Shown here piece by piece: positions 22,167 through 45,776 of a DNA stretch of 64,000 nucleotides. Below the pieces are notes generated by a model that did no database searches, was not told the DNA's origin, and saw only the letters and a program-made list of their open reading frames with translations. Source of the DNA: Betaproteobacteria bacterium HGW-Betaproteobacteria-6 (GTDB taxonomy: Bacteria; Pseudomonadota; Gammaproteobacteria; Burkholderiales; Rhodocyclaceae); assembly GCA_002842145.1 (NCBI GenBank), contig PHCF01000004.1:1-64000 (forward strand). The letters are read 5' to 3'. The number at the start of each line of letters is the position of its first letter. The stretch's first letter is position 1. The position numbers and the translations under genes were made by a program.

Positions 22167-23546
22167 TCAACCACCAAGGCGCTGCAGAGCCCCGACAGTG
22201 AGATATTTTTCGTAGATACTTTGATCATTAACCAGCATGGTGTGTCCACCAGGAATCGTCCGCACTTGCTCAATACGAGTCATCCGATTCGTTTGAACGT
22301 TATAGGCATGAACCGTGGTCCAAGACCAATAGGGGCTATTTCCATCCGTGACCCGCCTTTTTCCATCATCATAGAGAGAGAAGGCGCCATCAAAAAAACG
22401 GAACATTTGTCCTTTTCGATCAAATGAAACCATGGCCAAAGGCAGGAGCGTTCTGGCATCAAACCAAACCCGTTTCTTACTAACTGGTGCCCGGGGAAAG
22501 CCGATCGGTGTAGCTTCGACAACAATGGCCTCAGGAATCAACTCAACCGAGGTATCCCAGAACAACGCCCCCTTTGGGCCTCCGTGAGTCTTATGCTCCC
22601 AGTTCGGATGCTCCGAGTTCCAGCCGTTAGATACGGCGGCAAGACAGGGACCTCGATGCACGATTTGGTAATCACCCCACGTCAGAAATGGGTCGCCAGC
22701 AGCCCACGCATCTGAAAGATATAACTCGGAGCCCGGATTTAACGGCTCGAATCGCTGGTTGGTGGGAAACCGACGAACACGCTTGAAGGCTGGAAGATAT
22801 CCATATAATTCGGGAAATTGTGTTTGGTCATACGGCCAAACGCTCAAGTAAGCGATGCCTTTCGAATCGCTAGGTTCGACGAAAAAAACCGATTGATAGC
22901 GCAGTTTATCCTCATGCCCTGGCAAATAAGGCCGGGGGCTCATAACGACGCGTCCCACCGAGGACATTTCAGCCCAGCCCGACGAGTATTGATATTGAAT
23001 ATTACCCGCTTGGTCCAAATCATATTCTTTGGAGACGTATAGACAGGAGTCATGGCGCCCCCAACTCAGGGTATGCGCGGCAAAGACTTCGACTGCGCTT
23101 TGTGGCTCAGGAAAAGGATTCCCCCCAATCCAGGGTTGGCCACTACGCGTGACTACGTTACCTTTATGGTCAAACATCGCTTGGCCTTGATTCTTGAGCG
23201 TTGCCTCAAGATAAGACGCTGGATTCAATTTGCTTAGGTCATTGGTCGTGGGCGCCAAGACCAATTTTCGTCCCATTTCGGATATCTGTAGAAAACGGAC
23301 GGGATCCAGCAGATCCTTCACAAGATGGACATTTTCCTTTGTAATCACATCGCCAGATTTTAATCGGCCACGTGTATACATTTCAATGGAAAGCAATTCG
23401 TCTGGATAAGCAGTAGCCACGCTGCCAGTCCGTGCAAAAGCTGACCAGGCTGAACAGAATACGCCGGCCCTGAACATACCTTTTGCGCTATTCGCCAGGA
23501 ACACTCGCCGACTAAAATCGTGGTCATACTTGCCCAGAAAAGCCAT
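22167..23546 (-). CDS. DUF1329 domain-containing protein, Tat-exported (copy 2)
   Basis: Paralogous to the 26435 ORF across its length; twin-Arg HDFSRRVFLANSAKG; start at MAFLGKYDHDF. Confidence 0.8.
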   Translation of the reverse strand: MAFLGKYDHDFSRRVFLANSAKGMFRAGVFCSAWSAFARTGSVATAYPDELLSIEMYTRGRLKSGDVITKENVHLVKDLLDPVRFLQISEMGRKLVLAPTTNDLSKLNPASYLEATLKNQGQAMFDHKGNVVTRSGQPWIGGNPFPEPQSAVEVFAAHTLSWGRHDSCLYVSKEYDLDQAGNIQYQYSSGWAEMSSVGRVVMSPRPYLPGHEDKLRYQSVFFVEPSDSKGIAYLSVWPYDQTQFPELYGYLPAFKRVRRFPTNQRFEPLNPGSELYLSDAWAAGDPFLTWGDYQIVHRGPCLAAVSNGWNSEHPNWEHKTHGGPKGALFWDTSVELIPEAIVVEATPIGFPRAPVSKKRVWFDARTLLPLAMVSFDRKGQMFRFFDGAFSLYDDGKRRVTDGNSPYWSWTTVHAYNVQTNRMTRIEQVRTIPGGHTMLVNDQSIYEKYLTVGALQRLGG

Positions 23547-23561
23547 TCTTTTCTCCGGCAG

Positions 23562-23589
23562 CGGCTCTGACAAAAAATTGCCAGAGCCG
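23562..23589. promoter_or_regulatory. Intercistronic hairpin (attenuator or processing site) between DUF1302 and DUF1329 genes
   Basis: CGGCTCTG-ACAAAAAATTGC-CAGAGCCG perfect 8-bp arms. Confidence 0.5.
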
Positions 23590-23612
23590 CAGCACTTCAG
23601 ACTTGCACGAGA

Positions 23613-25412
23613 CTAGAAATAATAAGATGCACGGACGAAAACCTCTCGTGCATAGTCAAGTCCTTGACCAAAGTCCTTCCCCTTATCGCTGCTCTTGAGG
23701 TAGTTGGCATAAATATCGAGTTGAGCTGATTTATTGATTTTCCATTTCGCGCCCGGCTGCAGTAACCAGCCTCCATTAAGATCAGTCAGCGCGGCAAAAT
23801 CAAACCGCCATTCCAAAGAGGGAGAAGGTTGCTGGAGAACAAATGCAATATTGTTCGATCCCCCGCTTTCACCCCTCGGCGCCGACCCGGGAATATTATT
23901 GCTACCTGCTAAGGATCGCCCGAAAAGATCACTTGCAGACTTGTGCATCCACTGGAAGACCATATAGGTCGCCGGCAGCGCCTGGCTAAACTTGTGATAT
24001 TTTTCAAAAATAAAGGCGAAGTTTGTTTCGTCCTTGACGATGTAGTCGCGGGACAAGGTTGGATTAGTAAACTTTTTGTTCGGCGTATAAGACAACTCAA
24101 ATCGACCAATCAATTGATCGGTGATTGAGTCCGGCTCTCCACTAAAGACTGTATTAAGACCGAATCCAAAAACATTCTCACGGGGATACTCACGTACCAA
24201 CCAGCCTCGCAAATCACCACCAGTGAAAAATCCATCAAGAATACAAGAGGCAGAGTTTGAATTTACGCTGATGTTCCCTGTGCTACCCGCCGTACCTGCA
24301 GCTCCGGATGCACCACACGCTCCAGCAAGGGCCGTAGCACCCAAGGGAGCCGTATTGAACTCATTCAGAGCGGTTTGAAGTGCCCCGAGACCATCCAGTC
24401 GTACCGAGCTAGCGTAGCGAAACCACTCTTGGGCGCTATAGACACCAACCCCTGAACCACCGGCAAAGGCAGAATCACCGACAGCTCCGGTTCCCTGAGC
24501 TTTTGTCCACCGGAAGACTCCGTCAGGATTATTTCTCCGAAGCGCAAAGGCCTGAACCCCAATATTGTCGTACTGCCCTTGAAGCCGGAAACCAAAATTC
24601 AATTTATCCTTGACTTCGTCGTAGCCGGTTTTCTGGTCGACGATAAATTGCGCCGGGATTGCGTTGTATGGTGAGTTCTCTGTAGGCAGCACGGTTGGTC
24701 TGAACATCTGAACAAAACCCTCCAACTGAGTATTGTCAGTCGCCCGCCAGGTACCGCGAACTGCCGGCGAAGAAACGCGTTTATCAGAAAACTCCTCGGC
24801 AGCGACATCCAATATGCTATGGCGTCTAAGATCAAGGCCGTTTGCCATATCGGCAACCCGGAAGAACAACGCCTCACCCCAGGCAATCTGTTGATTCCCG
24901 ATGCGCAACCATACCGGACCCTTCGCGTAATCGAGGTAAGCAGCAGGCAAATCAAGGATCCAGTCTTTCCCTGCTGCACCGAGAACACCACCAGATTTCG
25001 ACGCACCAAAACTCTGCTCAAAAAGGTTCTTGTCTTTGAAGGCATCTTCCACTTTACCGACCTGGTCGGTAAATCCCCGCAGCTTTAAATGCGCAGCCCA
25101 GTTATCAGTCAGTTTCCCATCGAGATTCAACTCAAGTCGGGTCGCCAACATATTCAGATTGGCGTCTTTTTTTTGTGAAGCTGGGCGGGTTAAAGTCGTA
25201 TCAGTACCAAGCACCTGTTTCGTAAATGTATTTGGCACCGCTACGCCGTTGTACGGATTCCCTGCCCAGTTATTGATATTCTGGTCATCGGTCATTTTCA
25301 CTGCGACTTCTTCCCGAATCAAGCCAGAAAAGCTCCAATCCGCCCCAAATGCAGATCCCATTGCGGCAGCCATACTAATAAATGCCACTCCGTGTAGCTT
25401 TGAATTTTTCAT
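23613..25412 (-). CDS. DUF1302 family outer-membrane-type protein
   Basis: Signal peptide, WSFSGLIREEVAVKMTDDQN, LRLRGF-type repeats, QQIAWGEALFFRVADMANGLDLRRH, C-terminal VRASYYF. Confidence 0.82.
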   Translation of the reverse strand: MKNSKLHGVAFISMAAAMGSAFGADWSFSGLIREEVAVKMTDDQNINNWAGNPYNGVAVPNTFTKQVLGTDTTLTRPASQKKDANLNMLATRLELNLDGKLTDNWAAHLKLRGFTDQVGKVEDAFKDKNLFEQSFGASKSGGVLGAAGKDWILDLPAAYLDYAKGPVWLRIGNQQIAWGEALFFRVADMANGLDLRRHSILDVAAEEFSDKRVSSPAVRGTWRATDNTQLEGFVQMFRPTVLPTENSPYNAIPAQFIVDQKTGYDEVKDKLNFGFRLQGQYDNIGVQAFALRRNNPDGVFRWTKAQGTGAVGDSAFAGGSGVGVYSAQEWFRYASSVRLDGLGALQTALNEFNTAPLGATALAGACGASGAAGTAGSTGNISVNSNSASCILDGFFTGGDLRGWLVREYPRENVFGFGLNTVFSGEPDSITDQLIGRFELSYTPNKKFTNPTLSRDYIVKDETNFAFIFEKYHKFSQALPATYMVFQWMHKSASDLFGRSLAGSNNIPGSAPRGESGGSNNIAFVLQQPSPSLEWRFDFAALTDLNGGWLLQPGAKWKINKSAQLDIYANYLKSSDKGKDFGQGLDYAREVFVRASYYF

Positions 25413-25446
25413 GGTTGTCCCACCTCCATAATTTCTTAACAGTCAA

Positions 25447-26433
25447 TTAGAACGTTAATTTAAGAATCTCGCCGGCACTGCCGGCAACGAATGCCGTTCT
25501 CGCTCCTTCAGCCCCCTCAATTCCCTTTACGGCCGAATGCATTCCCCTGGTTGTCGCTTTGGAAACCTCAGGCGAAAAGGTCAGCCCGCTGTCGGTTGAG
25601 GTCACGACAGTGCGAATCCCTACTGCGATTGCATCCTGGCCATCCGGACTCGACCAAACATCTGTCAAGATTGCCGACGTGCCACTTTTTATGGGAGTCC
25701 ATGATTTGCCGTCATTGACGGACCGAAGAATCAAGCCCTCCTGTCCAACAGCAAGCATTCGTCCATTTTCACCAACATGGATCCCAAAAAGGGAGCGCTC
25801 TCCTTTATGCAAAACGCCCCAATTCAAGCCACCATCGGTCGACCGGATGATGAGTTCGAACTCCCCCGTCACGATTACCGAGCCATCCTCTCCAACATTC
25901 ACACTGTAGAGATGAGGTTCAGCCTCCGTGCCCAAGATGGACTTCCAGTCGACTGCCAACTGATTCCATGACGCCCCCCAATCTGACGACTTGAGCAGAG
26001 CGCCAAATTCGCCAACGGCATATGCATTACCCTTGGAGTTAGCATGTATCGACAGCATTCGCGCATTGGTAACTGGTGGAACATTCGCCCATTTAATGCA
26101 ATCATCCGATCTGACAATGGAGCCCTGCTGACCAGCTGCCATGCACTTTCCGGATTTCCTGACCACAGAGAAAAGGCCGTCTTTGACGCCAGATTTATCA
26201 AGCTTCCGCCAGGTTGCGCCCCCATCTGCGGTATCCATCAGCAGCCCATGATCACCAACGGCGATGCCATGCTTTCCTTCAAAGCTAAGCCCATAAAGAA
26301 AATCATGCGGAATGCCACTAGCTACGGCCTGAGCGCTAACGTTGCCAGCGGCAACGGCATGTGTAATGCCGATGCCCGTCAACATGGCGAGAACCATCGT
26401 CATACCAAGCAACTTCATACGATGGCTCTCCAT
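25447..26433 (-). CDS. YCF48/BNR-repeat photosystem II assembly factor-like periplasmic protein
   Basis: Signal peptide and repeated G-D-x-G / DGGxTW BNR-type motifs (DTADGGATWRKL, RSTDGGLNWGVL, RSVNDGKSWTPI). Confidence 0.8.
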   Translation of the reverse strand: MESHRMKLLGMTMVLAMLTGIGITHAVAAGNVSAQAVASGIPHDFLYGLSFEGKHGIAVGDHGLLMDTADGGATWRKLDKSGVKDGLFSVVRKSGKCMAAGQQGSIVRSDDCIKWANVPPVTNARMLSIHANSKGNAYAVGEFGALLKSSDWGASWNQLAVDWKSILGTEAEPHLYSVNVGEDGSVIVTGEFELIIRSTDGGLNWGVLHKGERSLFGIHVGENGRMLAVGQEGLILRSVNDGKSWTPIKSGTSAILTDVWSSPDGQDAIAVGIRTVVTSTDSGLTFSPEVSKATTRGMHSAVKGIEGAEGARTAFVAGSAGEILKLTF

Positions 26434-26434
26434 A

Positions 26435-27805
26435 TCACGCCCCGAGGCGGCTGATAGCTTGCTCAGTCAGGTATTTGTCGTAAATTCCTTCTGGATTTCG
26501 TACCGACTTGATGCCCCCGGCAATCTCCTTGGCTTGAACTATTCGCGACATCCGATTCGACTGAATGTCATGACTCATAATGGAGGTCCAGGTCCAGGCT
26601 GTATGCTTGCCCGTCATTTCGCGGACATTACCTTTCTCGAGGAGGCTATAAGTTGGCTCAAAGCTCTTAAACAACTCGCCGCGTCGATCGTAGGTGTGAT
26701 AACCGATATACATCATGTTTCGCGCATCGAGCCAGACACGCTTTTTCCCAACCGGGGCACGGGGATAACCGACAGGTTCTGCATCTAGAACCAGACACTC
26801 AGGAATCAGCTCCATACTGATTTCAAAGAAGGTTTGCCCAGCAGGCCCACCGTGAACTGGCATTTCCCAGTTCGGATGCTCAAGTTGATTTTGGGAGACA
26901 GCGCCTAGCATTGGTCTGCGCTCGACAAGCTTGTAATTACCCCATGTAAGCATAGGATCACCCGACCCCCATGCATCAGAGAGATAAAACGTCAAGCCGG
27001 GAGCTAGCGGTTCAAAACGCTGATTGGTAGGGAACTTTCTTACCCGCTTAAAAGCTGGGACATAACCCACGAGCTCGGGAAATTTACGTTGGTCGTAATT
27101 CCATGTGCTCAGATAAGCAGTACCCCGTACATCAGAGGGCGCGGAGAACAAAACCGTTTGGTAACGAAGTTTGTCCTTATGTGTATCTCCGCTAAAACCA
27201 CCGGGAGAACTGAGGCGCCCGCTAACATTTTCTTCATACCAGCCAAAATCGTATTGATAGGATACTTTTCCATCAGGTCCAATATCCCAGTCGCGCATCG
27301 CATAGACGGCGCTGTCATGCCGCCCCCAACTTAGCGTAATATTTGCAAAGGCCTCCAAAGCTGTTTTCGCATCTGGGAACGGGTTACCACCAATCCAGCG
27401 CTCCCCATTACTTGTATAGACGTTGCCATCACTATCTAGCTTTGCCTTCCCGGCATTTTTAAGCGTTGCCTCTAGATAATCATGGGGAAAGAGTCGTGAA
27501 ACATCTTTCGTCGTCGGCACAATTCGAATACGACGCCCCATCTCTTTCACCTGCTTGTAGGCAATCGGGGTCAGCAAATCTTTAACAATATCGACGTTAG
27601 CTGCCGTGATTAGGTCACCAGTCTTAACCTTGCCCTTGGTATAAGCATCAATTGACAACAATTCGTCGGGATACGCCTTTGTGATATCGGCACCCTTGGC
27701 GATCAACGGCCAAAGCGGTGTAAGAATCCCCGCCCCCGCCATGGTCCCCATCTTGGCGATAAACGCCCGGCGGCTATAGTCAAAATCATATTTTCTAATA
27801 TGCAT
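26435..27805 (-). CDS. DUF1329 domain-containing protein, Tat-exported (copy 1)
   Basis: YSRRAFIAKMGTMAGAGIL Tat signal; same repertoire as 22167 ORF (RVRKFPTNQRFEPL, YLSDAWGSGDPMLTWG). Confidence 0.82.
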   Translation of the reverse strand: MHIRKYDFDYSRRAFIAKMGTMAGAGILTPLWPLIAKGADITKAYPDELLSIDAYTKGKVKTGDLITAANVDIVKDLLTPIAYKQVKEMGRRIRIVPTTKDVSRLFPHDYLEATLKNAGKAKLDSDGNVYTSNGERWIGGNPFPDAKTALEAFANITLSWGRHDSAVYAMRDWDIGPDGKVSYQYDFGWYEENVSGRLSSPGGFSGDTHKDKLRYQTVLFSAPSDVRGTAYLSTWNYDQRKFPELVGYVPAFKRVRKFPTNQRFEPLAPGLTFYLSDAWGSGDPMLTWGNYKLVERRPMLGAVSQNQLEHPNWEMPVHGGPAGQTFFEISMELIPECLVLDAEPVGYPRAPVGKKRVWLDARNMMYIGYHTYDRRGELFKSFEPTYSLLEKGNVREMTGKHTAWTWTSIMSHDIQSNRMSRIVQAKEIAGGIKSVRNPEGIYDKYLTEQAISRLGA

Positions 27806-27849: not shown

Positions 27850-30288
27850 TTACGGGTACGGGGTCAGCGGCTTGGCGGCGTGATCGGTATCAAGCCAGCC
27901 ATCGACAGATTCCGAAAGAAAGTGGTGCTCCGCCGAAACAAACTTGGGTTTGATGAGGTAAATCAATAATGGAACGAGCACCAAAGCCAAAAGCGTGTTG
28001 ATAGCCATCACAACCACCAACAGCAAACCCATCTCTGCGAGAAACTTCAACTCCGAAAGGAAATACCAAGGGGTGATTCCAATCGTCATCAGGAGCGCTG
28101 TAAATAGAATGGCTTTTCCACAGGTGCTGAGCGCAGCCTGAATTGCGTTGCCGAAATGCTGGGCGTCCTTGTACTCTTCACAGATTCGACTCACCAGATA
28201 GATGCCGTAATCAATACCGACACCAATACCGATCGCCAAAATCGGAAGAGAATTGACATCGAGCCCCATTCCCGCAAAAACCATAAATGCAGTCAGGACG
28301 GCATTTGCCAAATTAACCGGGATGAGCAAAATCACTGCAGCCAGAACCGAACGGTAGGCCAAAGCACAGCCAATACCGATCGCCAGGTTCAGACCTGCAA
28401 GAATCCACCATTGATAGATATCTACCGTGTCATTTACTGACTGTTGGAGGGCAATTGATCCCGTGGCCAATCTAATTAGAAATTTCTCATGGTCAGGACC
28501 AACTTCCGCGATGCAGCTTCGTGCGTCCGCCAGCGCAACATTTACGGTTTCCTGTTTGTTGTCGGAGTACCACAAGGAGACTGTTGCGTTCTTTTGTTCA
28601 AAATCGGCAATATGGAGAAAAGCCGTTGGGCTAGTACCGAGCATCAGGGCCCCAGATGCCGCACCTGCTGCTGCATCCGACTTATCCAGAGGCAACCACT
28701 TTGGATTCCCGCCGTTAAACAAGCGATTGGCTTCCGGCGCATAGTCGGCAAAAGATAGCGTAGCCCTGGGTGGATGCTCCTTGCTCTCCAAACAGCGCTG
28801 GAGGGCGGACATCGTCTGCAAGGCATCAGACTGGCGAACGATTCGCCCTTCTTTTCCTTCAAACACGATCTCAAGGGTCATGCTGCCAGGAAAGTGAGCG
28901 TTGATTTGGCGGACTGCAGTATTGAATTGGCTGTCGTCACGCAACAGGTTGCTCCCCTCGACAGGATTCCCGACCTGAAGTCGGAGCATCATGAGGATGG
29001 CGCCCAAGGTGAGCAGCACAAAAAACGCGGCTGTAAATTTCGCGCGTCGTCCAGTGCTGACGTAACCGGCCACCGAAAGCGCCGAATAGAGCACTCTATG
29101 AACGAATCCGACCTCGCCCTTCCCATGGTCCGAGACGCCGACCAAATCCTTAAGATTCTTTGGAGCAGGCAGCAATGCCAGGATAACGGGTGTCATCAAG
29201 ACGCTGGTCGGCACCAGCGTCATAGCCCAAAATCCGGTGAAGAGCGCAAACCGTTCCATTGCGGGAATCGGTGCAAGTCCCACAAGCATCAGGCCGCAGA
29301 CATCTGTGAATATGCCCAACGTGCCCGGGGCAAACATCATCGCCAGGGACATTTCGGCCGCTTTCTTCTTGTCCCCGACTTCAAGGAGGAGTTCGTAGTA
29401 GCGTTCAGTAGCTTGCACACAATGACTGAATGATCGTGCGACCAACAAGAGTGGAACAACCATCAACAGTGGCTCAACCGGCTGATGAATCCATCCTACA
29501 AAGCCGAATCCCCAAATCGCCGCCATGAGACTTACGATGACTGGAGTAACCACGCCGGCAACGTTTCGCATCGCGAAAAATAGGCAAACAAACATCAAGC
29601 CAAGCGTCACAGCGAAAATCTTTGGCGTTTGATCACCAAAGAAATAAACCCACCCAGTCAGCATCGGCCAACCCGCTGCATACACCTTGTGATTTCCGTC
29701 CGAGTACTTGTCGCTTAAGGCTTGGACCGCATCGAAAACCTGCTTGTAATCAACCAATCTTTCAATGAAGGTCGCATTGATAATTAATGAGGTCTGATCC
29801 TCGGAGACCAGAAAGGTCTTTACGTAGGGGGATTCGTTAACACGGCGACGAATCTCATTGAGCTCCTCAGCCGTAGCCGGAGGACGGTTATCAAGAATCG
29901 GATTGGAAAATATCCCATCCGCCGTCAGAACCGTATAACGAGCTTTTTCGGTAGCGATAGAGACAATCTGATCGTGATCAACACCCGGTGTCAGATCGAT
30001 ATCCCGAGACATATTCCACACTTTTTCCATCGTCTCGGCGTTAAATACATCTTTCCCATCCGTGCGTTTCACCATGATGGTCACGGTGAGCGGATTGCCA
30101 AAATTAGGATGATCCTTGTAGGTTTTAACAAACGGATGCGTCGAAGGAAAAAGGTCCGAGAAGATAGTCCTGGCCTCGACATGCAACGCCCCATAACCGA
30201 AGAACAAGGTGATCAGTAGGCCAATGGCAAGCGAAATCCATGGACTTTTAAGAACCCAGTGTGCAATTCGATGTCTGATTGTATTCAT
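27850..30288 (-). CDS. RND/MMPL family transporter
   Basis: 812 aa, multiple TM segments, PILAIGIGVGIDYGIYLVSRI. Confidence 0.87.
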   Translation of the reverse strand: MNTIRHRIAHWVLKSPWISLAIGLLITLFFGYGALHVEARTIFSDLFPSTHPFVKTYKDHPNFGNPLTVTIMVKRTDGKDVFNAETMEKVWNMSRDIDLTPGVDHDQIVSIATEKARYTVLTADGIFSNPILDNRPPATAEELNEIRRRVNESPYVKTFLVSEDQTSLIINATFIERLVDYKQVFDAVQALSDKYSDGNHKVYAAGWPMLTGWVYFFGDQTPKIFAVTLGLMFVCLFFAMRNVAGVVTPVIVSLMAAIWGFGFVGWIHQPVEPLLMVVPLLLVARSFSHCVQATERYYELLLEVGDKKKAAEMSLAMMFAPGTLGIFTDVCGLMLVGLAPIPAMERFALFTGFWAMTLVPTSVLMTPVILALLPAPKNLKDLVGVSDHGKGEVGFVHRVLYSALSVAGYVSTGRRAKFTAAFFVLLTLGAILMMLRLQVGNPVEGSNLLRDDSQFNTAVRQINAHFPGSMTLEIVFEGKEGRIVRQSDALQTMSALQRCLESKEHPPRATLSFADYAPEANRLFNGGNPKWLPLDKSDAAAGAASGALMLGTSPTAFLHIADFEQKNATVSLWYSDNKQETVNVALADARSCIAEVGPDHEKFLIRLATGSIALQQSVNDTVDIYQWWILAGLNLAIGIGCALAYRSVLAAVILLIPVNLANAVLTAFMVFAGMGLDVNSLPILAIGIGVGIDYGIYLVSRICEEYKDAQHFGNAIQAALSTCGKAILFTALLMTIGITPWYFLSELKFLAEMGLLLVVVMAINTLLALVLVPLLIYLIKPKFVSAEHHFLSESVDGWLDTDHAAKPLTPYP

Positions 30289-30520
30289 ATTATGTCTTTA
30301 GGATGTTAGGTGACAGGGCAGATATTCATTACTATTGCAATCAATCTCCGTTGGAATCAGACCGGCTATTCGCCATCAAGAGGGACCCGTCACGATTCTC
30401 ATGAAGACCATCTTCTAGGCGAGAAACCCCCAACCTGAACCTTGGCTCACGAAGGAAGATTGCTTAGTCGCAAATCGATTTACTTAAACGATATTTAAAC
30501 GCTCCCCGCTCCGACTAACC

Positions 30521-30540
30521 CTACCCCCCAGGGTAGTTTT
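30521..30540. promoter_or_regulatory. Candidate regulatory element CTACCCCCCAGGGTAGTTTT (RND side)
   Basis: 17/20 identical to CTACCCCGGAGTGTAGTTTT at 45757-45776; CTACCC...GGGTAG dyad. Confidence 0.5.
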
Positions 30541-31233: not shown

Positions 31234-32268
31234 TCAAGCAACGACAGGCTCATCGGAAACCTTAATTAATAGTTTTCCGGTATTAGTGCCTCTGAAGAGC
31301 TTATCCAGAGCGCTTGGCGCATTCTGAAGGCCTTCGACAATATCCAATCGATATTTCATGCGCCCCTGCAAAAACCATTGTGTCATATCATCATGCGCAA
31401 TGGCCCACCAGCGTGCGTCAGCTGCGTAATCAAGCACGATGAAGCCTTCTATCTTCGCCCGCTTCATTAGCAAATTGTAGATATTAGGTGGGGCGTAAGG
31501 CTTCTCGTCTGTGCCATATTGGGAAATGGCACCACACATGGCAATCCGTGCCTTCATGTTAATCTGGTCTAGCACAGCCTCCAGAGTCTCACCCCCGACA
31601 TTGTCAAAGAAAGTATCTATGCCGTTCGGACATGCTTCTCTTAGTGCGGTCTTGAGAGGTTGTTTTTTGTAATTAATAACTGCATCGGCACCCAACTCAT
31701 TCTTCAGCCAGGCGCACTTTTCTTCCGAACCAGCAATCGCAACTACACGACAGCCCAAAATTTTGCCAATCTGAACTGCTATGGAGCCCACTGCACCTGC
31801 GGCTCCCGATACCACCATCGTTTCCCCGAACTTTGGACGCAGCAAATCGACAATTCCAAAATATGCGGTCAGCCCGATATGCTCAAAAAGCCCAAAGCGT
31901 GCCGTCAGCGGCAAACGAGGATCCATTTCCACACGGGTAACAATGCCACTACCATCGGAAATCGAGTATTCCTCCCATCCGAATACGCCGGTGACAATAG
32001 CTCCGATGGGATACTGCAAATTATTCGACTTTTCTACGACACCCATCGTGAATCCGCGCATAACGTCGCCAAGCCTAACCGAAGGCATATAGCTATCCTG
32101 CTCACGCGCCCAAAGCCTAAGGGTAGGGTCGAGAGAAAGATAAATGGTTCGAATTAGGAACTCGTTCGCTCCTAGATCACGAACAACACTTTCTCGAATC
32201 TCAAAGTTTTCTGGCTTTAGATCACCAGTCGGTCGACTGATCAGATGCCACTGTTTATTGATCGGCAT
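31234..32268 (-). CDS. NADP-dependent oxidoreductase (zinc-free MDR / alkenal reductase type)
   Basis: VSGAAGAVGSIAVQIGKILGCRVVAIAGSEEKCAWLKNELGADAVINYK, DNVGGETLEAVL. Confidence 0.87.
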   Translation of the reverse strand: MPINKQWHLISRPTGDLKPENFEIRESVVRDLGANEFLIRTIYLSLDPTLRLWAREQDSYMPSVRLGDVMRGFTMGVVEKSNNLQYPIGAIVTGVFGWEEYSISDGSGIVTRVEMDPRLPLTARFGLFEHIGLTAYFGIVDLLRPKFGETMVVSGAAGAVGSIAVQIGKILGCRVVAIAGSEEKCAWLKNELGADAVINYKKQPLKTALREACPNGIDTFFDNVGGETLEAVLDQINMKARIAMCGAISQYGTDEKPYAPPNIYNLLMKRAKIEGFIVLDYAADARWWAIAHDDMTQWFLQGRMKYRLDIVEGLQNAPSALDKLFRGTNTGKLLIKVSDEPVVA

Positions 32269-32504
32269 AGTAAATTATCTCCATTTGTAATTGCTTATAA
32301 ATGCACTGCGGAATTAAAAAACAACCAACATCGAACATCACATTAACAAGACACAACTCAGAGATTGAAGCCAGAAAACACTCAAGCTTAGCAATCTAGA
32401 ATAGATTAAAACCCAAAAAAACCGCTCAATTTAGCAGCCCATAAAACCAAAATAAATTCGACATCAAAACCTTAAAAACAAAATAAAATTTAACACCATT
32501 AAAT

Positions 32505-32930
32505 TCAGACAGAACACTGTGGACCAGAACTACATTTAGGGCAAACCCGGCAAAAACTATTATTTAGAATATGGCCAGCAATAAGAGATATGCTGGAAAA
32601 AATAGTTATCAAATTATCTGAGTTTTCACCAATCAAGTCACCAACCCAAAAGGCCGCAAAAAACACCCCAAAAATGCCTATTGAAATTAACATCATAGGC
32701 AAAATACGTCGATGAAACCGGAAGCCTGGCAGAGCAGAAAACAAAGCGGGAATCGTCAGAAAAAACGCCAAATATTGATGGGTAACGCCATCATGCAAAA
32801 ATAGCGCTCCTGACACCGAAAAGGCTGCCAAGAGGACAGGTAAAGCGAGACAGTGCAGCAAACAAACCATTGACAGCACGACTCCTAATTGGTCCCACCT
32901 ATTTCTAATGCTTGAAAAATTAGAATACAT
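32505..32930 (-). CDS. MerC domain-containing membrane protein
   Basis: DQLGVVLSMVCLLHCLALPVLLA, HRRILPMMLISIG, Cys-rich C-terminus; AT-rich gene. Confidence 0.75.
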   Translation of the reverse strand: MYSNFSSIRNRWDQLGVVLSMVCLLHCLALPVLLAAFSVSGALFLHDGVTHQYLAFFLTIPALFSALPGFRFHRRILPMMLISIGIFGVFFAAFWVGDLIGENSDNLITIFSSISLIAGHILNNSFCRVCPKCSSGPQCSV

Positions 32931-32989
32931 ATATATATATTTATTACCAAATTATCGCAAAGGTATTTTTTGTTAATAATATTTTTTAG

Positions 32990-33757
32990 TTACTGAGCCG
33001 TATAACCACCATCTATTACTAGCTCGCTACCTGTCACGAACAATGCCTCGTCCGAAGCAAGGTACAAGATTGCATAAGCAATCTCTTTGGGATCTCCGAG
33101 TCGACCGATAGGGTGCAGCTTTTCCGCCAAGGGCCGTGTAGCCTTCAAATCCCCAAGACTAGCCAAGAAGTTCTCGACCATCGGAGTCCAGATATATCCG
33201 GGGTGGACGGTATTGACACGAATTTGATACTGCTCTTTCGCGCAATAAAGAGCGGCCGACTTGGAAAAAAGACGCACGCCCCCTTTGCTAGCGTTGTAGG
33301 CGGCAAGATTCGGATCTGCGACGATCCCCTCGACCGAAGATAAATTGATGATCGAGCCATTTCCGGTTTTCATCGCCGCAATGGCATGTTTGGTACCAAG
33401 AAATACGCCATCAAGGTTGACAGCCATAAGCTGTCGCCAACGCTCCAAAGTCTCGTATTCGGCATTGCCGTCAAGAGCCATGCCAGCGTTGTTGACAAGG
33501 ATATTCAGTGCTCCGAAGTTATCCTGGGTTGATTGAATCACTTTGATCCACTGCACTTCTTCGGTAACGTCATGGTGGAAAAATATCGCATTGCCACCAG
33601 CATCCCGAATCTCCTTGGCGACGCTCTCGCCTGCAACATCGTCGACGTCGGTCAATGCAACCTTAGCCCCCTCTTCGGCCAGCAGGATTGCTGTTGCTCG
33701 GCCAATGCCCTTTGCTGCACCAGTAACCAATGCCACTTTGTTGCGAACACGTTCCAT
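32990..33757 (-). CDS. SDR family NAD(P)-dependent alcohol dehydrogenase/oxidoreductase
   Basis: TGAAKGIG, NNAGMA, SS...YNASKGG, CDD-typical C-term DGGYTAQ. Confidence 0.88.
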   Translation of the reverse strand: MERVRNKVALVTGAAKGIGRATAILLAEEGAKVALTDVDDVAGESVAKEIRDAGGNAIFFHHDVTEEVQWIKVIQSTQDNFGALNILVNNAGMALDGNAEYETLERWRQLMAVNLDGVFLGTKHAIAAMKTGNGSIINLSSVEGIVADPNLAAYNASKGGVRLFSKSAALYCAKEQYQIRVNTVHPGYIWTPMVENFLASLGDLKATRPLAEKLHPIGRLGDPKEIAYAILYLASDEALFVTGSELVIDGGYTAQ

Positions 33758-33772
33758 GAAATATTCCTTTAT

Positions 33773-34963
33773 CTACAGTTTTTCGAAAATTGTCACGTTG
33801 GCCATCCCCCCACCTTCGCACATGGACTGGAGACCATATCGCCCTCCACGCTTATGCAGGGCATGGATCAACGTGCTTGCCAACTTCGTACCTGATGCTC
33901 CCAATGGATGCCCAAGCGCGATGGCGCCACCGTTGACATTCAAGCGTCCGGGATCAGCCCCGGTTGCTTGTAGCCAGGCCAGAGGAATAGATGCAAAGGC
34001 TTCATTTATTTCAAAGAGGTCAATATCATTGATCTTCAGCCCAGCCTTTTCCAAAGCTCGAGCTGTGGCTGGAATTGGGGCCTCAAGCATGATCACTGGA
34101 TCGTGTCCAAAAACGCTGAGGTGATGGACCCGTGCCAAAGGCTTTACACCCAAAACTTTCAGGGCGCGCTCGCTCACTACCAACACGCCACTGGCTCCGT
34201 CGCAAATTTGACTACTATTGGCGGCGGTACAACGCCCACCTTCCGCCATTAACTTGACGCTGGAAATACCTTCAAGCGATGCATCAAATCGGATTCCTTC
34301 ATCGATCAGATGAAGCTCCTCAGATGATTCGACACCAGCGCTTTTCACTGAAACCGGTAAAATTTCATCAGTAAAGAATCCAGCTTTTGTAGCTGCAATG
34401 GCGCGCTGGTGACTTTGATATGCAAATTGATCTAGTTGCTCTCGACTCAACTCGTATTTGCGAGCAACCATTTCAGCACCAGTAAACTGGCTGAACTCAC
34501 CAACCCCCGGATAGCGAAGCTCCATCCCCGGACTGAAATAGAAACCCATCCCGTTCTTTTTTGCCAAAGTGGAAGGAGTAAACATGGGAACCCGACTCAT
34601 GCTTTCTACCCCAGCGGCAATAACAACATCCATTGTTCCGGACATAACTGCTTGTGCAGCAAATTGGAGTGCTTGCTGCGATGATCCGCACTGGCGATCG
34701 ATTGAGCATGCAGAAACCGATTCCGGCAAGTTCGATGCAAGGACCACGTTCCGTGCAACGTTGTTCGATTGCTCGCCCGCTTGGCTAACACAACCCAAAA
34801 TCACATCCTCAACCAACGCCGGATCACAATCAGCATGGGCGACCAAACCATTCAAAAGGTGTGCTGCAAGGTCGACGGGATGCCACCCAGAGAGCCGACC
34901 ACCTCGACGCCCACCTGCTGTCCTCAGTGCCGCAACTATGTAAGCTTCTGCCACGTTTTTCAC
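33773..34963 (-). CDS. Thiolase (acetyl-CoA acyltransferase)
   Basis: SACSIDRQCGSSQQALQFAAQAVMSG active Cys; NVNGGAIALGHPLGASGTK; SMCEGGGMANVTIFE. Confidence 0.9.
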   Translation of the reverse strand: MKNVAEAYIVAALRTAGGRRGGRLSGWHPVDLAAHLLNGLVAHADCDPALVEDVILGCVSQAGEQSNNVARNVVLASNLPESVSACSIDRQCGSSQQALQFAAQAVMSGTMDVVIAAGVESMSRVPMFTPSTLAKKNGMGFYFSPGMELRYPGVGEFSQFTGAEMVARKYELSREQLDQFAYQSHQRAIAATKAGFFTDEILPVSVKSAGVESSEELHLIDEGIRFDASLEGISSVKLMAEGGRCTAANSSQICDGASGVLVVSERALKVLGVKPLARVHHLSVFGHDPVIMLEAPIPATARALEKAGLKINDIDLFEINEAFASIPLAWLQATGADPGRLNVNGGAIALGHPLGASGTKLASTLIHALHKRGGRYGLQSMCEGGGMANVTIFEKL

Positions 34964-34969
34964 TCCTTA

Positions 34970-36982
34970 TTAGGCGACAGTCGACCGCCATTGATAATCT
35001 TTCGACTCCTCAGCAAAACGAACAAAATAGTCGATCGCTTCCGGATTCTTCATCGCATCTCGGCTTGCAGCCTTTTCCAAAGGCGTCCCCATTAATATCT
35101 TGCGGACAGGAACCTCCATTTTCTTGGCAGTGAGCGTATAAGGCACGGCATCGATGGCGTACATGCGGTCCGGTACGTGCCGAGGACTGCAGTCGGCACG
35201 CAAACGAGATGTAATTGCCGCGACCAATGCTGCATCAAGCACTACGCCAGGCTTAAGTGACACGAACAAGGGCATGAAAAAATTCCCCCCTGGCAGTTCG
35301 CAGCAAACAACCAAGCTATCTGCCACACCTTCCACTTGTTCCACTGCCCGATATATCTCAGCAGTCCCAATACGAACACCGTAGCGATTCAATGTGGAGT
35401 CCGAACGCCCCTTGATGTAGCAACCCCCACGGGCATTTATTCTGATGAAATCGCCATGACGCCAAACATCCTTGAAAACATCAAAGTACGACTCGTGATA
35501 GCGTCTGCCGTCCACATCATTCCAAAAGCTGATGGGCATCGATGGAAATGGGCTAGTGACGACAAGTTCCCCAACCTCATCTACGAGATCCTTGCCATCA
35601 TCGCTCCAGGCGCGAACATCCATCCCAAGGCAACGACACTGGATTTCACCCGCGTACACCGGCAAGACAGGAACAGAACCAACAAAAGCACCGGCTACCT
35701 CGGTGCCACCTGATTGCGAGGTCAGCCAAAGGTCTGGCTTCACACAATCGTAGAACCAAGAGAATGTTTCGGGCGTGGCAGGAGCACCTGAGACAAATAT
35801 CGATTCAATGCGACTCACATCGAAATGGTCGCCAGGTCTCAATCCAGCTTTTTCAAGTACTTGCACATACGTTGGACTAGCACCAAACGAAGTCACGCCA
35901 GTCTGTTCTGCAATCTTCCATAGCAGCTCTGGCCCCGGGTGTGTCGGGCTTCCGTCATAAAGAACGATTGCCGAACCAGTCAATAGAGCCCCAAGCAGCA
36001 TGTTGAACATGACCCAACCAGTGGTGGTGTAGAAGAACATCACCGACTCAGGACCCAGGTTGACGTGGAAATGCATCATTTTCAGATGCTCCATCAACAC
36101 ACCCACGTGGCTATGCACAATCGCCTTGGGCAACCCAGTTGTCCCGGATGAGAACAAAATCCACAGCGGATGATCACAACCGACTCGCTCGTAATTGAAT
36201 GATTCACGAGGGATGTCAGGATGTCGCATCAGGTCTGGCCAGGCGATGCTGTTGGAGATTTCTTGCGAAGTGGTATTCGCATTTCCCAGACAGGCACACC
36301 ACACGACCTGCTGTAGAGATGGAAGTGCGTTAATGATTTGTCGAACTTCGCTCTCTCGACGGAAGTCCTTTCCGCCAAAACGATAGCCATCAGACGCAAA
36401 AAGTACTTTCGGCTCGATTTGCGAAAAACGCTCAATAACTGTTTTGACCCCGAATTCAGGCGCCGCAGAGGACCATACTGCACCAATAGCAATCGTGGCC
36501 AGCATTGCCACGGCCGTCTCCGGAATATTGGGCATGTACGAGACAACCCGATCACCAGGAACAACCCCCATCGACCGCAACTGTGTGGCTACGATCCGAA
36601 CCTGCCGGCCCAATTCACCCCAAGTCATGGCAGCAAATGGACGGAACTCAGTTCCGTGGTGGATGACCGTACGGTCGCTGGCCGATGCTTCAAAACGCAA
36701 CATATGCTCAGCGTAGTTCAGGAGACTTCCCTCGAACCATTTTGCCCCCGGCATTACCCGACGATCGAGGACATGCAGGTAGGGAGTGGAAGACTGAACG
36801 TCAAAATACTCCCATAATGAACCCCAAAAATCTTCTATATTCGTAACCGACCAACGACGTAATGTCTCGTAATCCTCGAAGACGAGAGCACGCGTTTTTT
36901 CAAGCCAGCGCATGTACTGCGAAAGATTGGAGCCTTTCGAAAAGTCATCACTGGGACTCCATAGCAACTGTCCTTCTTGCAT
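34970..36982 (-). CDS. Acetoacetate-CoA ligase family; candidate beta-keto-acid (benzoylacetate-like) CoA ligase
   Basis: LWILFSSGTTGLPKAIVHSHVG; ANL superfamily, ~670 aa with AACS-type N-term; linked to carboxylase genes and thiolase. Confidence 0.85.
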   Translation of the reverse strand: MQEGQLLWSPSDDFSKGSNLSQYMRWLEKTRALVFEDYETLRRWSVTNIEDFWGSLWEYFDVQSSTPYLHVLDRRVMPGAKWFEGSLLNYAEHMLRFEASASDRTVIHHGTEFRPFAAMTWGELGRQVRIVATQLRSMGVVPGDRVVSYMPNIPETAVAMLATIAIGAVWSSAAPEFGVKTVIERFSQIEPKVLFASDGYRFGGKDFRRESEVRQIINALPSLQQVVWCACLGNANTTSQEISNSIAWPDLMRHPDIPRESFNYERVGCDHPLWILFSSGTTGLPKAIVHSHVGVLMEHLKMMHFHVNLGPESVMFFYTTTGWVMFNMLLGALLTGSAIVLYDGSPTHPGPELLWKIAEQTGVTSFGASPTYVQVLEKAGLRPGDHFDVSRIESIFVSGAPATPETFSWFYDCVKPDLWLTSQSGGTEVAGAFVGSVPVLPVYAGEIQCRCLGMDVRAWSDDGKDLVDEVGELVVTSPFPSMPISFWNDVDGRRYHESYFDVFKDVWRHGDFIRINARGGCYIKGRSDSTLNRYGVRIGTAEIYRAVEQVEGVADSLVVCCELPGGNFFMPLFVSLKPGVVLDAALVAAITSRLRADCSPRHVPDRMYAIDAVPYTLTAKKMEVPVRKILMGTPLEKAASRDAMKNPEAIDYFVRFAEESKDYQWRSTVA

Positions 36983-37026
36983 TAACCAATTCCTCTCATT
37001 GACGTTCGGCCTAGCGGAACGGCGGC

Positions 37027-37932
37027 TCAGCGCAAAGCTGATAAGCGTTCAAGCACGTGTTCAGGATTTTCATCTGCCGGAATCTCAAGGAAAACGAAGC
37101 CGCCATCCGGGCGCCTGGGCCCCGCTTCACCGCTCCAGAAGGCCTTAGACACCGACAAACCGAGCGGAACGCCAGGTACGCTGTGCGGTGCTATCCAGAA
37201 ATCTGGGCCGGACAAAGATTCGATGGCAGATCCAGTCGGAACTTTGATACCAAGCGCCCAACGATAGTGATCCGACAAATTCAAAAGCGGCTTGTAGAGG
37301 TCAACCACCTCCTGGCTGCTTGGTTCGCTTTCGCTGCTTTCTTCAAGCAGCAAGATATCGATGCCGGCATCCGAAAAACCACGCAAAAAGTCTGCGATGT
37401 ACACGGCTGCTGAATCGATAGCATCCATGTCAATCACTGCCGCCTGCCTTAGGCGCTTGTGTGCAGCAATTTCTTGATCAAGCGAATCGACAATATCTAT
37501 CTCTACAGCAATCTTTTCCCCCGGGAATGCCTGTGCATGGGCCAGAGAAACCCAAACAGCAGGAGACGGTAAAACCAGCGCAAGAGGAGTTTTCGGAAAG
37601 CAAGCACGTAGCCCGGTCGACAAATCGACAAGATGCTTTCGCAGGGCAGGATCGGCAAGCAGTGTGCGCAGTGCAAAACCAGGCCGCTGCTTTGCTCCCA
37701 TGGCCTCGACCAACTTGGGATTTTCCGAGAGCCATTGAATAACCACCGCCGCAACTGGCAAAGAAACCACATCTGTCGGCAGCAAGCCAGCTGCCTTACG
37801 CTGCCAATTGATCAGTTGGTCGACCTCTAGCCAAGGCACCTTCCCGCCGCTAAGCAGCTTACCCGCATAATTTCCGTACTCGATCCAAAGCAGACCGGAA
37901 GGCTGTACAAGACGTTCGGTAAAGGAGTTCAT
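37027..37932 (-). CDS. Uncharacterised ~33 kDa protein; candidate acetophenone-carboxylase epsilon (Apc5)-like subunit
   Basis: Position in operon and size; start at MNSFTERLVQPSGLLWIEYGNYA. Confidence 0.5.
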   Translation of the reverse strand: MNSFTERLVQPSGLLWIEYGNYAGKLLSGGKVPWLEVDQLINWQRKAAGLLPTDVVSLPVAAVVIQWLSENPKLVEAMGAKQRPGFALRTLLADPALRKHLVDLSTGLRACFPKTPLALVLPSPAVWVSLAHAQAFPGEKIAVEIDIVDSLDQEIAAHKRLRQAAVIDMDAIDSAAVYIADFLRGFSDAGIDILLLEESSESEPSSQEVVDLYKPLLNLSDHYRWALGIKVPTGSAIESLSGPDFWIAPHSVPGVPLGLSVSKAFWSGEAGPRRPDGGFVFLEIPADENPEHVLERLSALR

Positions 37933-37939
37933 GATCGTA

Positions 37940-38791
37940 TCAAATGGCAGTAAAGCCACCATCAACAGCTAATTCCGCACCGGTCACCCAACGCGCAGCA
38001 TCCGAAGCCAGATAGAGCGCCGCTAGTGCAATATCGACAGGTTCGCCGAGAAATCCAATTGGATGGGCTGCAACAAATTCACTTTTCGCAGAGTCGAGGT
38101 CTGGAACCAGCTTGAAATCAACATATTGTTGCAGCACCTGCTGGCCCATCTCGGTCTTTACCAAGCCGGGATGGATTGAGTTGCAGCGAATTCCCAGGCC
38201 AAGTTGACCGCACTCGACTGCAACTGATTTAGTGAGAAGGCGAACAGCACCTTTTGAAGCAACATACGCCCCCAATCCCGTGAATCCGACGAGGCCGCCA
38301 ATGGAGGACAAATTGATAATCGAACCGCCATTGCCAGCCGCGCCCCCGGGACGCATTGCACGCATTGCGTGCTTGCATCCAAGGAACACTCCCGTCACGT
38401 TCACGTCAAGAATGCGTCTAAAATCCTCGACTCGGGTATCGGTCAAAAATTGAAACAATTCAATACCCGCGTTGTTCACGAGCACATCGAGACCACCGAA
38501 GCGTTGAAGTGTTGTGGCCAAGACTGACTCCCAGTTGGCCTCATCTGCTGCATCAAGTCGCATAAACTCGGCCACGCCTCCGAATGAAGCGATTTTCTCT
38601 ACCGTTTGACGACCCTGCTCCTCATTAATATCAGTCACCATGACATTGGCACCTGCCGAAGCGAAAGCAAGCGCAATTTCCGCACCGATACCCCGCGCCC
38701 CACCGCTGATCAGCGCCACTCTACCGGCAAGGCTAAAGGCCTTCATGGCTTCGGAACTATTGGGCACCCGCCCTTTATCCAGAGAATTCAT
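37940..38791 (-). CDS. SDR family oxidoreductase
   Basis: SGGARGIGAEIALAFASAGANVMVTDI, NNAGIEL, YVASKGAVRLLTKS, DGGFTAI. Confidence 0.88.
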   Translation of the reverse strand: MNSLDKGRVPNSSEAMKAFSLAGRVALISGGARGIGAEIALAFASAGANVMVTDINEEQGRQTVEKIASFGGVAEFMRLDAADEANWESVLATTLQRFGGLDVLVNNAGIELFQFLTDTRVEDFRRILDVNVTGVFLGCKHAMRAMRPGGAAGNGGSIINLSSIGGLVGFTGLGAYVASKGAVRLLTKSVAVECGQLGLGIRCNSIHPGLVKTEMGQQVLQQYVDFKLVPDLDSAKSEFVAAHPIGFLGEPVDIALAALYLASDAARWVTGAELAVDGGFTAI

Positions 38792-38858
38792 TTTGTCTCC
38801 TTTATTATTTGAGATGCTCTAGGGGCTATTCCCCCTAGGCACCAAATTTCCAGCCGGT

Positions 38859-41120
38859 TCAAACGCCAAACTTGGCGAGTTCTAATCGAGCTCGAGAGAG
38901 TTCTGCCTGTAGTTCGCCAATCAGAACGTCTTTCGGATTCGGCATGAACATGCTGTTCAGCTTGTCGCCATCCATCCGAATGCGCTGCCCGTTGGACACG
39001 CCATAAATGACATTTCGGTCATCCCAGGAGCCAAAATAAGGCAAATATGCAGGCGGCTCAGCTGTGTTCCATTCCTGGATGAAGTCATCAAAAGACTTAC
39101 CGCGAGCAATTCGGGCGCGCCGCTCAGCTTCCCGCAACTCCTTGGTCGCAATCTCATCCACAAAATGCGTAACAGGATCGATAATCACCTTGTAGATATC
39201 GAGTGCCGTTTCGTGAGAAATCAGCTCCTCTTCGAGATCCTTGGCAACCAATGCAGGATCGCGCAATAGCACATCGCCATAGCCGCTACCGCCGCCCTGA
39301 CAGATCATGTACACCTCACCAGGTTGAACCAGTTCGAATGTCATGCCCATGTCATGGGTGCTATAAGTTGCTCCCTCAATCGGTTGGTTGTTCATCAAAT
39401 CGATGATGTCGAAATTGATGTTTTCCGGTGCAGACTTCAATTTCTCGAAAATATCGATGTTACGAATCTTGCACAACGGATAAACGGGGGGCCCATAGCC
39501 GCCAAAAAGCGGTTGGGACGGGGTAAACACGGAGCCAGTACATCCGGTCATGAATCCCCAGAAGCCAGTGCCTCGCGTCGTGGCAATCTGCTCATAGCCC
39601 AGACCACCACGATACATACCAAAGCCGACACGGTCCTTAGCGAGCGTGAACGCGCCCAGACGAACAATGGGAATTTCTTCCTCAATCAGTTCCATTTCAC
39701 CGATGTCACACATTGCTGCAAACGGCGGAGAAATTGAGTGCTCGCCATCGGCGTTGGCACGACCGCCCTGGCCATTGCCATTGATATCCGCACAGAAGTT
39801 TCCTACTTGCTCGGTATGCTGAGTCAATCCACCATAGATAAGCGTTGCCGGTTGATCATATTGAGGCGCAACGATTGACGTGTATCGGTGCGGCAGCATA
39901 TAGCTGAGCTTCGCCATAGGAATGGTTGGCAAAGTCATTGCCTTAAACAAGGGAATTAGACTCATGGCCTGAGGCGTATCAAACGACCCGTTAAGCACTG
40001 ATTTTTCATCGAAGATGAAATCCATCGGTGACAAAATCGACAGGGTTTGCGGCAAATCCGGCCAAATATTCTGAAGGAAGCACGTCAGCAAGATGGTCTT
40101 GAAGGACGCTTGATTGGTATTGATCGAGCGATTCAGAAACTCCGGTGACGATCCCCTAAAGTCCAACAACATCCGGTCGCCCTTGACCGTAACGGCAAGG
40201 TTGAACTTCATTAAGACGTTTTCACGCAAGGTCGAATCGGGAAAAGCAACCACTCGGGTAGTGCCATCGGGCAATTCGGCAATGCGCCGACGCACCTCGA
40301 CCTCAACGTCCTCTAGATTCTTCCTAAGCGTCCCGATTAGTGCTTCTTCACCAAACTCCTCCAACACCTTCAGCACGCGCTCTCGCAGTCGCAACACTGA
40401 GTGGAGTTTGACTTTCATATCTTCATACTGAAGTTTCGGGTCGCGCACCGAGTTCTGCAGGAAAGTTTGAAGATCGCGCCGAATCTGGAAATTTTCGATG
40501 ATTTTGAAAGGCGACATTTTTAGCCCTTCATCGAACTTGCTTTCTGCTGCTGCAGGCATGCCGCCAGGCTCGCAGGCTCCGTTCTCCCCTTCGTGAATTG
40601 TTGCCGAAAGCCAAGCGACCAACTTGCCTTTCCAGAACAGGGGAACAATCGTCGATTGGTCGGTATTATGAATCCCGCCGTAACGGGCATCATTGTGAAT
40701 AAAACCATCGCCATCACGAATTCCGACTGTAGGATCATCCTTCCAATACTTGGAAATAAACTTGATCGGATAGTGACAGCAGCCGGCAAAGCCCACGACG
40801 CCGTGGGGAGAGATCATTGACAGGTCGCCATTCGCGGTGAAAATGGCAGCGACAATATCGCCCCATTTGGCCCCCGGAGCGGCCCCCATCTGTTCAATCA
40901 TGGTGTTGCTCTCGTCGAGAGCAGCTAGTAGGCGACCGCGAACTTCATTGACCAGATGCGGATCCATGCCTTTTGAGAGAACGGATTCCTCCATCTCATT
41001 GCGAGCCCCAACCCGATGGTCTTCCATAATTTCTGGGTCAGGCGCATGAAACAGGGTGTTCTCTTCGAGAAATTTGGCGAGAACTTTTTGCTCGTCGAAT
41101 GCATTGCTAACGTTAGTCAT
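38859..41120 (-). CDS. Hydantoinase B/oxoprolinase family; ketone (acetone/acetophenone) carboxylase HyuB-type subunit
   Basis: HyuB family features (GGIHNTDQSTIVPLFWKGKLVAWLSATIHEGE; FRGSSPEFLNRSINTN); followed by SDR and Apc5-like ORF. Confidence 0.82.
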   Translation of the reverse strand: MTNVSNAFDEQKVLAKFLEENTLFHAPDPEIMEDHRVGARNEMEESVLSKGMDPHLVNEVRGRLLAALDESNTMIEQMGAAPGAKWGDIVAAIFTANGDLSMISPHGVVGFAGCCHYPIKFISKYWKDDPTVGIRDGDGFIHNDARYGGIHNTDQSTIVPLFWKGKLVAWLSATIHEGENGACEPGGMPAAAESKFDEGLKMSPFKIIENFQIRRDLQTFLQNSVRDPKLQYEDMKVKLHSVLRLRERVLKVLEEFGEEALIGTLRKNLEDVEVEVRRRIAELPDGTTRVVAFPDSTLRENVLMKFNLAVTVKGDRMLLDFRGSSPEFLNRSINTNQASFKTILLTCFLQNIWPDLPQTLSILSPMDFIFDEKSVLNGSFDTPQAMSLIPLFKAMTLPTIPMAKLSYMLPHRYTSIVAPQYDQPATLIYGGLTQHTEQVGNFCADINGNGQGGRANADGEHSISPPFAAMCDIGEMELIEEEIPIVRLGAFTLAKDRVGFGMYRGGLGYEQIATTRGTGFWGFMTGCTGSVFTPSQPLFGGYGPPVYPLCKIRNIDIFEKLKSAPENINFDIIDLMNNQPIEGATYSTHDMGMTFELVQPGEVYMICQGGGSGYGDVLLRDPALVAKDLEEELISHETALDIYKVIIDPVTHFVDEIATKELREAERRARIARGKSFDDFIQEWNTAEPPAYLPYFGSWDDRNVIYGVSNGQRIRMDGDKLNSMFMPNPKDVLIGELQAELSRARLELAKFGV

Positions 41121-41161
41121 GATTTGCTATTTGCCTCCTAATTCTTGAATTTGTACTTGGC

Positions 41162-43297: not shown

Positions 43298-43314
43298 TTT
43301 TCCTGATCCCCTGA

Positions 43315-43728
43315 TTAATGGTTGTGACCGCAATGCCCGTGCGCCTTGCGCTTGGGAGGAGCATTGCCGATGGGCGCCTCAAGCACTTCTTCCCTATCCT
43401 TCCATTGCTCTTTTAGCGCATCGATATCAAGTTCAATGTCATGGAGCGGCGGATGACCAGGCGGCAGATATTCGGTTTCCATCATGGTTCCGCACTTGGG
43501 ACAGTAGTACTCAAGAATCCGGCACCAATCCGGGTTCGGCGAATAGTTCCGGGGGTACTTGCTCGGGTCCAATAGGGGCTTATGGATTTCACGCGGATCA
43601 CGGTTGTATACGAGCAGTCCGCGCTTATAGCTTTCACGAGCAGAGACGAGTTCGGTGCCACAATGTCGGCACTCATAGAGCTCGGTATCTAGATCGATCC
43701 GAAGGTTCTCTGTGACAAGGACTTTCAT
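43315..43728 (-). CDS. Acetone/acetophenone carboxylase gamma-type small subunit, two CxxC motifs
   Basis: ECRHCGTELVSARESYKRGLLVYNRDPREIHKPLLD...YYCPKCGTMMETEYLPPGHPPLHDIELDID; between the two HyuA genes. Confidence 0.8.
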   Translation of the reverse strand: MKVLVTENLRIDLDTELYECRHCGTELVSARESYKRGLLVYNRDPREIHKPLLDPSKYPRNYSPNPDWCRILEYYCPKCGTMMETEYLPPGHPPLHDIELDIDALKEQWKDREEVLEAPIGNAPPKRKAHGHCGHNH

Positions 43729-45686: not shown

Positions 45687-45756
45687 AGTCTTTTCCTCTA
45701 TACCCATTGCTAACCGGAGTGAGACTGCATAGTTACAGCGTCAACAAGCCCGGTCC

Positions 45757-45776
45757 CTACCCCGGAGTGTAGTTTT
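45757..45776. promoter_or_regulatory. Candidate regulatory element CTACCCCGGAGTGTAGTTTT (carboxylase/regulator divergent region)
   Basis: 17/20 match to 30521-30540; lies between divergent carboxylase operon and LuxR gene. Confidence 0.5.

Follow-up and report, generated by a model that had tools for sequence, protein, structure and literature searches.

The question raised by this locus is whether two similar 20-bp elements, one upstream of an RND/DUF1329/DUF1302 efflux cluster (site A) and the other upstream of a carboxylase operon (site B), are copies of a common operator. The window, i.e. the whole stretch of 64,000 nucleotides that was analysed, also carries a gene for a MalT-like regulator of the LAL type, and the original prediction was that a common operator, probably of this regulator, joins export and ketone degradation in one regulon. 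Orthologous promoters, fixed promoter spacing and the class of the recognition helix support this proposal. Judged from sequence, we put at roughly 80% the probability that the dyads within the elements are class-II activation sites of the adjacent LAL, through which an AmeABCD-like efflux system is tied to a pathway of the acetophenone-carboxylase-like kind. The features concerned are as follows.

22167..27805, - strand: DUF1329, Ycf48-like (BNR), DUF1302 and DUF1329 genes of the efflux cluster
27850..30288, - strand: RND (MMPL/HAE3-like) transporter gene, first behind site A (Pfam MMPL; orthologs 72-74%)
30493..30498, - strand: -10-like hexamer TTAAAT, 22 bp downstream of site A in the gene sense
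30521..30536, - strand: site A, perfect dyad CTACCC-N4-GGGTAG in the promoter of the RND/DUF1329/DUF1302 cluster (served gene on the - strand)
31234..43728, - strand: rest of the catabolic block, with genes for acetone-carboxylase-gamma-like, HyuA (Apc gamma-like), HyuB, SDR, 312-aa, CoA-ligase-like, thiolase, SDR, MerC-like and ADH_N_2 oxidoreductase proteins
43764..45707, - strand: HyuA-type gene, acetophenone carboxylase alpha-like, first behind site B
45729..45735, - strand: weak -10-like stretch TAACTAT, 21-22 bp downstream of site B in the gene sense, the weakest of seven
45757..45772, - strand: site B, dyad with one mismatch in the carboxylase operon promoter (CTACCC-CGGA-GTGTAG on the + strand)
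45974..47356, + strand: LAL regulator, N-terminal ATPase part, frame ends early
47350..48714, + strand: LAL regulator, TPR and LuxR-type HTH part in another frame, recognition helix TVKYHVKNIY

Both 20-mers are present where they had been placed, CTACCCCCCAGGGTAGTTTT at 30521-30540 and CTACCCCGGAGTGTAGTTTT at 45757-45776, and they agree at 17 of 20 positions. Two 20-mer matches with at most three mismatches are found in the window, versus 0.04 expected. Comparison of the intergenic regions of A and B gives a best common 20-mer of 17/20, a score reached in none of 60 Markov shuffles. A genome scan had been proposed, with many random matches as the outcome that would speak against the prediction; in the assembly scanned (G000, 4.3 Mb in 226 contigs), exact matches to CTACCCCNNAGKGTAGTTTT are confined to sites A and B, and the next best are two matches with three mismatches each. 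The symmetric core of the element is a 16-bp dyad, CTACCC-N4-GGGTAG, which is perfect at site A and has one mismatch at site B; the only third dyad in the genome with one mismatch or fewer (C225:28546) falls within a 453-aa ORF. Of the motif first described, a dyad followed by TTTT, the dyad is upheld as CTACCC-N4(5)-GGGTAG and the TTTT is not, the T-run being present in three of eight sites; TTTT on the + strand (AAAA upstream in the gene sense) is common only to A, B and one relative. The near edge of site A lies 233 bp from the start of the RND ORF, in line with the ~230 bp given earlier, and the ~70 bp given for the carboxylase side is corrected to 50 bp between the near edge of site B and the start codon. 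Site B also lies within the divergent region shared with the LAL gene.

The inverted repeat is conserved at several promoters beyond what chance would give: outside this genome, dyads with at most one mismatch precede orthologous RND or carboxylase genes in two further members of the family and in one Cupriavidus plasmid. Upstream of the RND ortholog of genome G313 (73% identity) there is a perfect dyad, CTACCCTCGAGGGTAG, which is the sole perfect dyad of that genome; outside the dyad, the sequence upstream of this ortholog cannot be aligned with the window, so that the dyad is the conserved part. The HyuA1 ortholog of G316 (74%) is preceded by CCACCC-GTAAT-GGGTAG, and a second G316 contig has CTACAC-N4-GGGTAG between a HyuA-type gene and the closest homolog of the regulator in the family (38-41% identity). 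Plasmid pBB1 of Cupriavidus necator N-1 carries a syntenic operon (HyuA1, gamma, HyuA2, HyuB, SDR, 312-aa homolog and CoA ligase, then a LAL) with two dyads, one before HyuA1 and one before the preceding SDR gene; a plasmid search by DNA similarity of the intergenic region gave no match. When 68 upstream regions of RND or HyuA1 homologs were searched with a gap of 4 or 5, the CTACCC arms gave three perfect dyads and six with at most one mismatch, versus no perfect and at most three near-perfect dyads for any of 29 permuted arms. The dyad is absent at the RND orthologs of G316:C59, G354, G398, G402 and G406. None of the regulator homologs of Limnobacter (44%) has a good dyad, and TTATCC-TNAA-GGCTAG, a weak candidate upstream of the regulator there, is at most suggestive.

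Another shared element, AAATACCTAC(C/T)C(A/G)AATAC, was observed upstream of dyad-less RND orthologs in G316, G402 and G406 (L052:1326, L056 and L054), and once directly behind a LAL gene (L081:11584, G316:C59). LALs that carry a different recognition helix may use it as their operator.

Pattern searches of wider scope were negative. The TTTT-bearing pattern has 12 matches in 399 genomes of the family, which is not above the reversed control; away from the known loci, the matches checked fall within ORFs or beside unrelated genes. The strict dyad combined with a -10 pattern has three matches in 399 genomes of the order, again not above the reversed control, and the neighbouring genes examined include none for a carboxylase, an RND protein or a LAL. 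A regulator that has very few targets is expected to show no enrichment of this kind; the result nevertheless limits the trust that can be placed in the pattern alone. A sequence-only model built from the five sites outside the window was also run on whole genomes. Its single match in the genome of the window is site A, on the strand that reads towards the RND gene. Site B scores 7.4 bits and ranks third in the window, and would therefore have been missed by the model alone. The model also predicts a new G316 site, CCACCC-TTAA-GGGTGG at C7:5882; behind it lies an ORF, truncated at the contig end, for the N-terminus of an RND protein, which shares 74% identity with its G313 counterpart across 35 residues.

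A -10-like hexamer is found downstream of all seven dyads in the gene sense, with the summed score, calculated from an approximate sigma-70 frequency table made for the present analysis, peaking at 29.7 for a distance of 22-23 bp. The second-best sum, 11.9, comes from an overlapping offset, and the peak was reached at no offset from 10 to 34 in 5000 shuffles. From this spacing alone, the dyad centre is predicted at about -42.5 or -43.5 relative to the transcription start, within the range of -41 to -45.

The gene next to the carboxylase-side element, which the original prediction called a LuxR regulator, encodes a MalT-like LAL transcribed divergently from the carboxylase operon. It has the architecture of this class, about 900 aa with an ATPase, MalT-like TPRs and a C-terminal LuxR HTH (Pfam AAA_16, TPR_MalT and GerE). 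LAL regulators have been described as poorly studied (PMC3282765). The gene (45974-48714) is frameshifted in this assembly at a junction around 47341-47350, and its homologs are continuous; the break may be a real mutation or a sequencing error. The genome has no second close homolog of the regulator, and among its LuxR-type genes found in a partial census, the K[YF]H helix occurs in the LAL alone.

Loci from other phyla were fetched with regulator peptides, including the recognition-helix peptide KYHVKNIY. In these, four dyads lie within 1 kb of LuxR-type genes, versus two in almost six times more sequence, and permuted arms give at most one. A dyad occurs within 1.5 kb of 9 of 28 genes with the K[YF]H helix (8 of 27 without a duplicate), versus none of 20 with other helices and at most two for permuted arms; taxon and composition are not matched between the two groups, for which the control with permuted arms corrects only in part. 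The LuxR-type genes of other phyla that adjoin a dyad share the helix K[YF]H[VL]KNIY, and the LALs of genomes with dyad-less RND promoters have other helices, e.g. KTHMRNINSKL. This association with one recognition-helix class makes a GerE-domain protein the candidate binding partner of the dyad. CTACCC-N4/5-GGGTAG dyads were seen near LuxR-type (GerE) genes of other phyla in L014, L017, L019, L028 and L030, the one in L028 lying 45 bp upstream of a response regulator gene; their position suggests autoregulation through the same operator class. We lean slightly towards a code that holds across phyla, in which GerE domains with T(V/I/L)K(Y/F)H(V/L)KNIY, in LALs and response regulators alike, would read CTACCC-N4/5-GGGTAG. 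A literature search of partial coverage brought no paper that we recognised as describing CTACCC or GGGTAG as a LuxR-type operator. If the code is true, regulator targets would be predictable from sequence alone, LuxR-type regulons of distant phyla could be annotated, and solvent-type RND efflux and ketone carboxylation would be linked in one regulon here.

In the mechanism that we propose, CTACCC-N4-GGGTAG is bound by two symmetrically arranged HTH domains of an activator of the LuxR/GerE type, for which the adjacent MalT-like LAL is the most likely candidate; the centre of the bound pair would lie about 42.5 bp ahead of the transcription start. The bound regulator would take the place of a -35 element and recruit RNA polymerase (class-II activation), so that one regulator would switch on the carboxylase ketone operon from site B and the RND efflux cluster from site A together. 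Binding by the LAL, activation rather than repression, the response to an inducer and co-expression of the two operons are all predicted parts of this scheme. The frameshift of the LAL, the weakness of site B with the poorest of the -10 stretches, the dyad-less RND orthologs, the Limnobacter homologs lacking a good dyad, the G313 assembly with a perfect site and no LAL found, and the pattern counts in family and order are points against this scheme. An unlikely competitor is another LuxR/NarL-type regulator encoded elsewhere in the genome, e.g. a two-component response regulator, which would act in the same manner and answer to a different signal. Response-regulator-type GerE genes of other phyla adjoin the same dyad (L028), the G313 assembly has a perfect site and yielded no LAL, and the known acetophenone operon is thought to be under the two-component system AdiRS (PMC4729919). 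However, it is the LAL that adjoins site B, its closest homolog in the family and the pBB1 LAL are likewise linked to dyad-bearing carboxylase genes, and in the partial census of the LuxR-type genes of this genome the K[YF]H helix is limited to the LAL.

Two further explanations appear very improbable. At A and B, TTTT on the + strand comes after a GC-containing stem of 6 bp, which could be an intrinsic transcription terminator, with its double occurrence a coincidence of hairpin design; however, the T-run is missing in five of eight sites, site A is not immediately preceded by the end of any plus-strand gene, the sequence of loop and arms is conserved beyond what pairing would need, and the distance to the -10 is fixed. 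Equally improbable is a chance similarity or a repeat left by an insertion element, for which the transposase fragment near site A (30598-31194, ~60 bp away) might speak. Against it stand the 0.04 matches expected in the window and the mere two in the genome, and no IS gene is recognised beside site B; conservation of the dyad at the same kinds of promoter elsewhere and the leave-out model also contradict this explanation. Regulation by the adjacent LAL is the reading that we retain. It gives this LAL a concrete predicted operator, a promoter geometry and a regulon of two operons; if true, export of hydrophobic compounds and degradation of ketones would be switched together.

In the acetophenone carboxylase structure PDB 5l9w, the alpha and gamma subunits are the matches of the HyuA proteins encoded behind site B. 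No Pfam or PDB match was obtained for the 312-aa protein (37027-37965), which recurs in the syntenic operons; its size and its place there would fit a counterpart of the Apc epsilon subunit of 34 kDa. A gene for a MerC-like membrane protein (32505-32930) lies inside the catabolic operon, and a remnant of an IS3-type transposase (HTH_21 and rve) separates this operon from the efflux cluster. The regulator is absent from all same-genus genomes sampled, and the RND and carboxylase orthologs are absent from the two sampled for them, which makes the block look accessory.

Among known systems, MalT is a LAL regulator of the same architecture (ATPase, MalT-like TPRs and GerE HTH), and its boxes have the sequence GGA(G/T)GA. 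Identity of the element with a MalT box was rejected, as there is no GGA(G/T)GA in ~450 bp around each of sites A and B. NarL is also a GerE-domain regulator, with TAC(C/T)-type heptamers, and it resembles the present case in an inverted repeat of TACCC-like half-sites just upstream of or over the -35 region. The adjacent LAL differs from it in having no receiver domain, and the NarL 7-2-7 site spans 16 bp, whereas TACCC-N4-GGGTA here spans 14 bp; with half-sites 4 bp apart, this is 7-0-7 in NarL terms. A 7-2-7 site was rejected, since 6-bp arms are enriched at a gap of 4-5 only. At the ogt promoter, the 7-2-7 site is centred at -44.5 (PMC7419079), not far from the centre predicted for the present dyads.

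The apcABCDE-bal operon of Aromatoleum aromaticum, which encodes acetophenone carboxylase (PMC4729919), resembles the present operon in its series of HyuA, acetone-carboxylase-gamma-like, HyuA, HyuB, a ~34-kDa protein and a CoA ligase (PMC4729919, PDB 5l9w). It differs in its predicted control, which is by the two-component system AdiRS there (PMC4729919) and by a LAL here. The cluster behind site A is similarly close to AmeABCD, the monoterpene efflux system of Castellaniella, in which DUF1302, DUF1329, Ycf48-like and RND genes form one cassette adjoining a degradation operon (PMC6394551). Compared with AmeABCD, the present cluster has an extra DUF1329 gene and a reversed gene order; it also has a predicted shared operator, of which the parts consulted of that description make no mention. 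As to the element itself, the lux box bound by LuxR-type activators is centred at -42.5 (PMC3376562, PMC7585371), and is likewise an inverted repeat for a dimer of LuxR-type HTHs over the -35 region, matching the centre of about -42.5 predicted here. The lux box differs in sequence, is 20 bp long and serves an AHL receptor, whereas CTACCC-N4-GGGTAG is 16 bp long and would serve a large ATP-binding LAL protein. With the sequence characters of a GerE-type operator, the element would thus work like a class-II operator of the lux box type.
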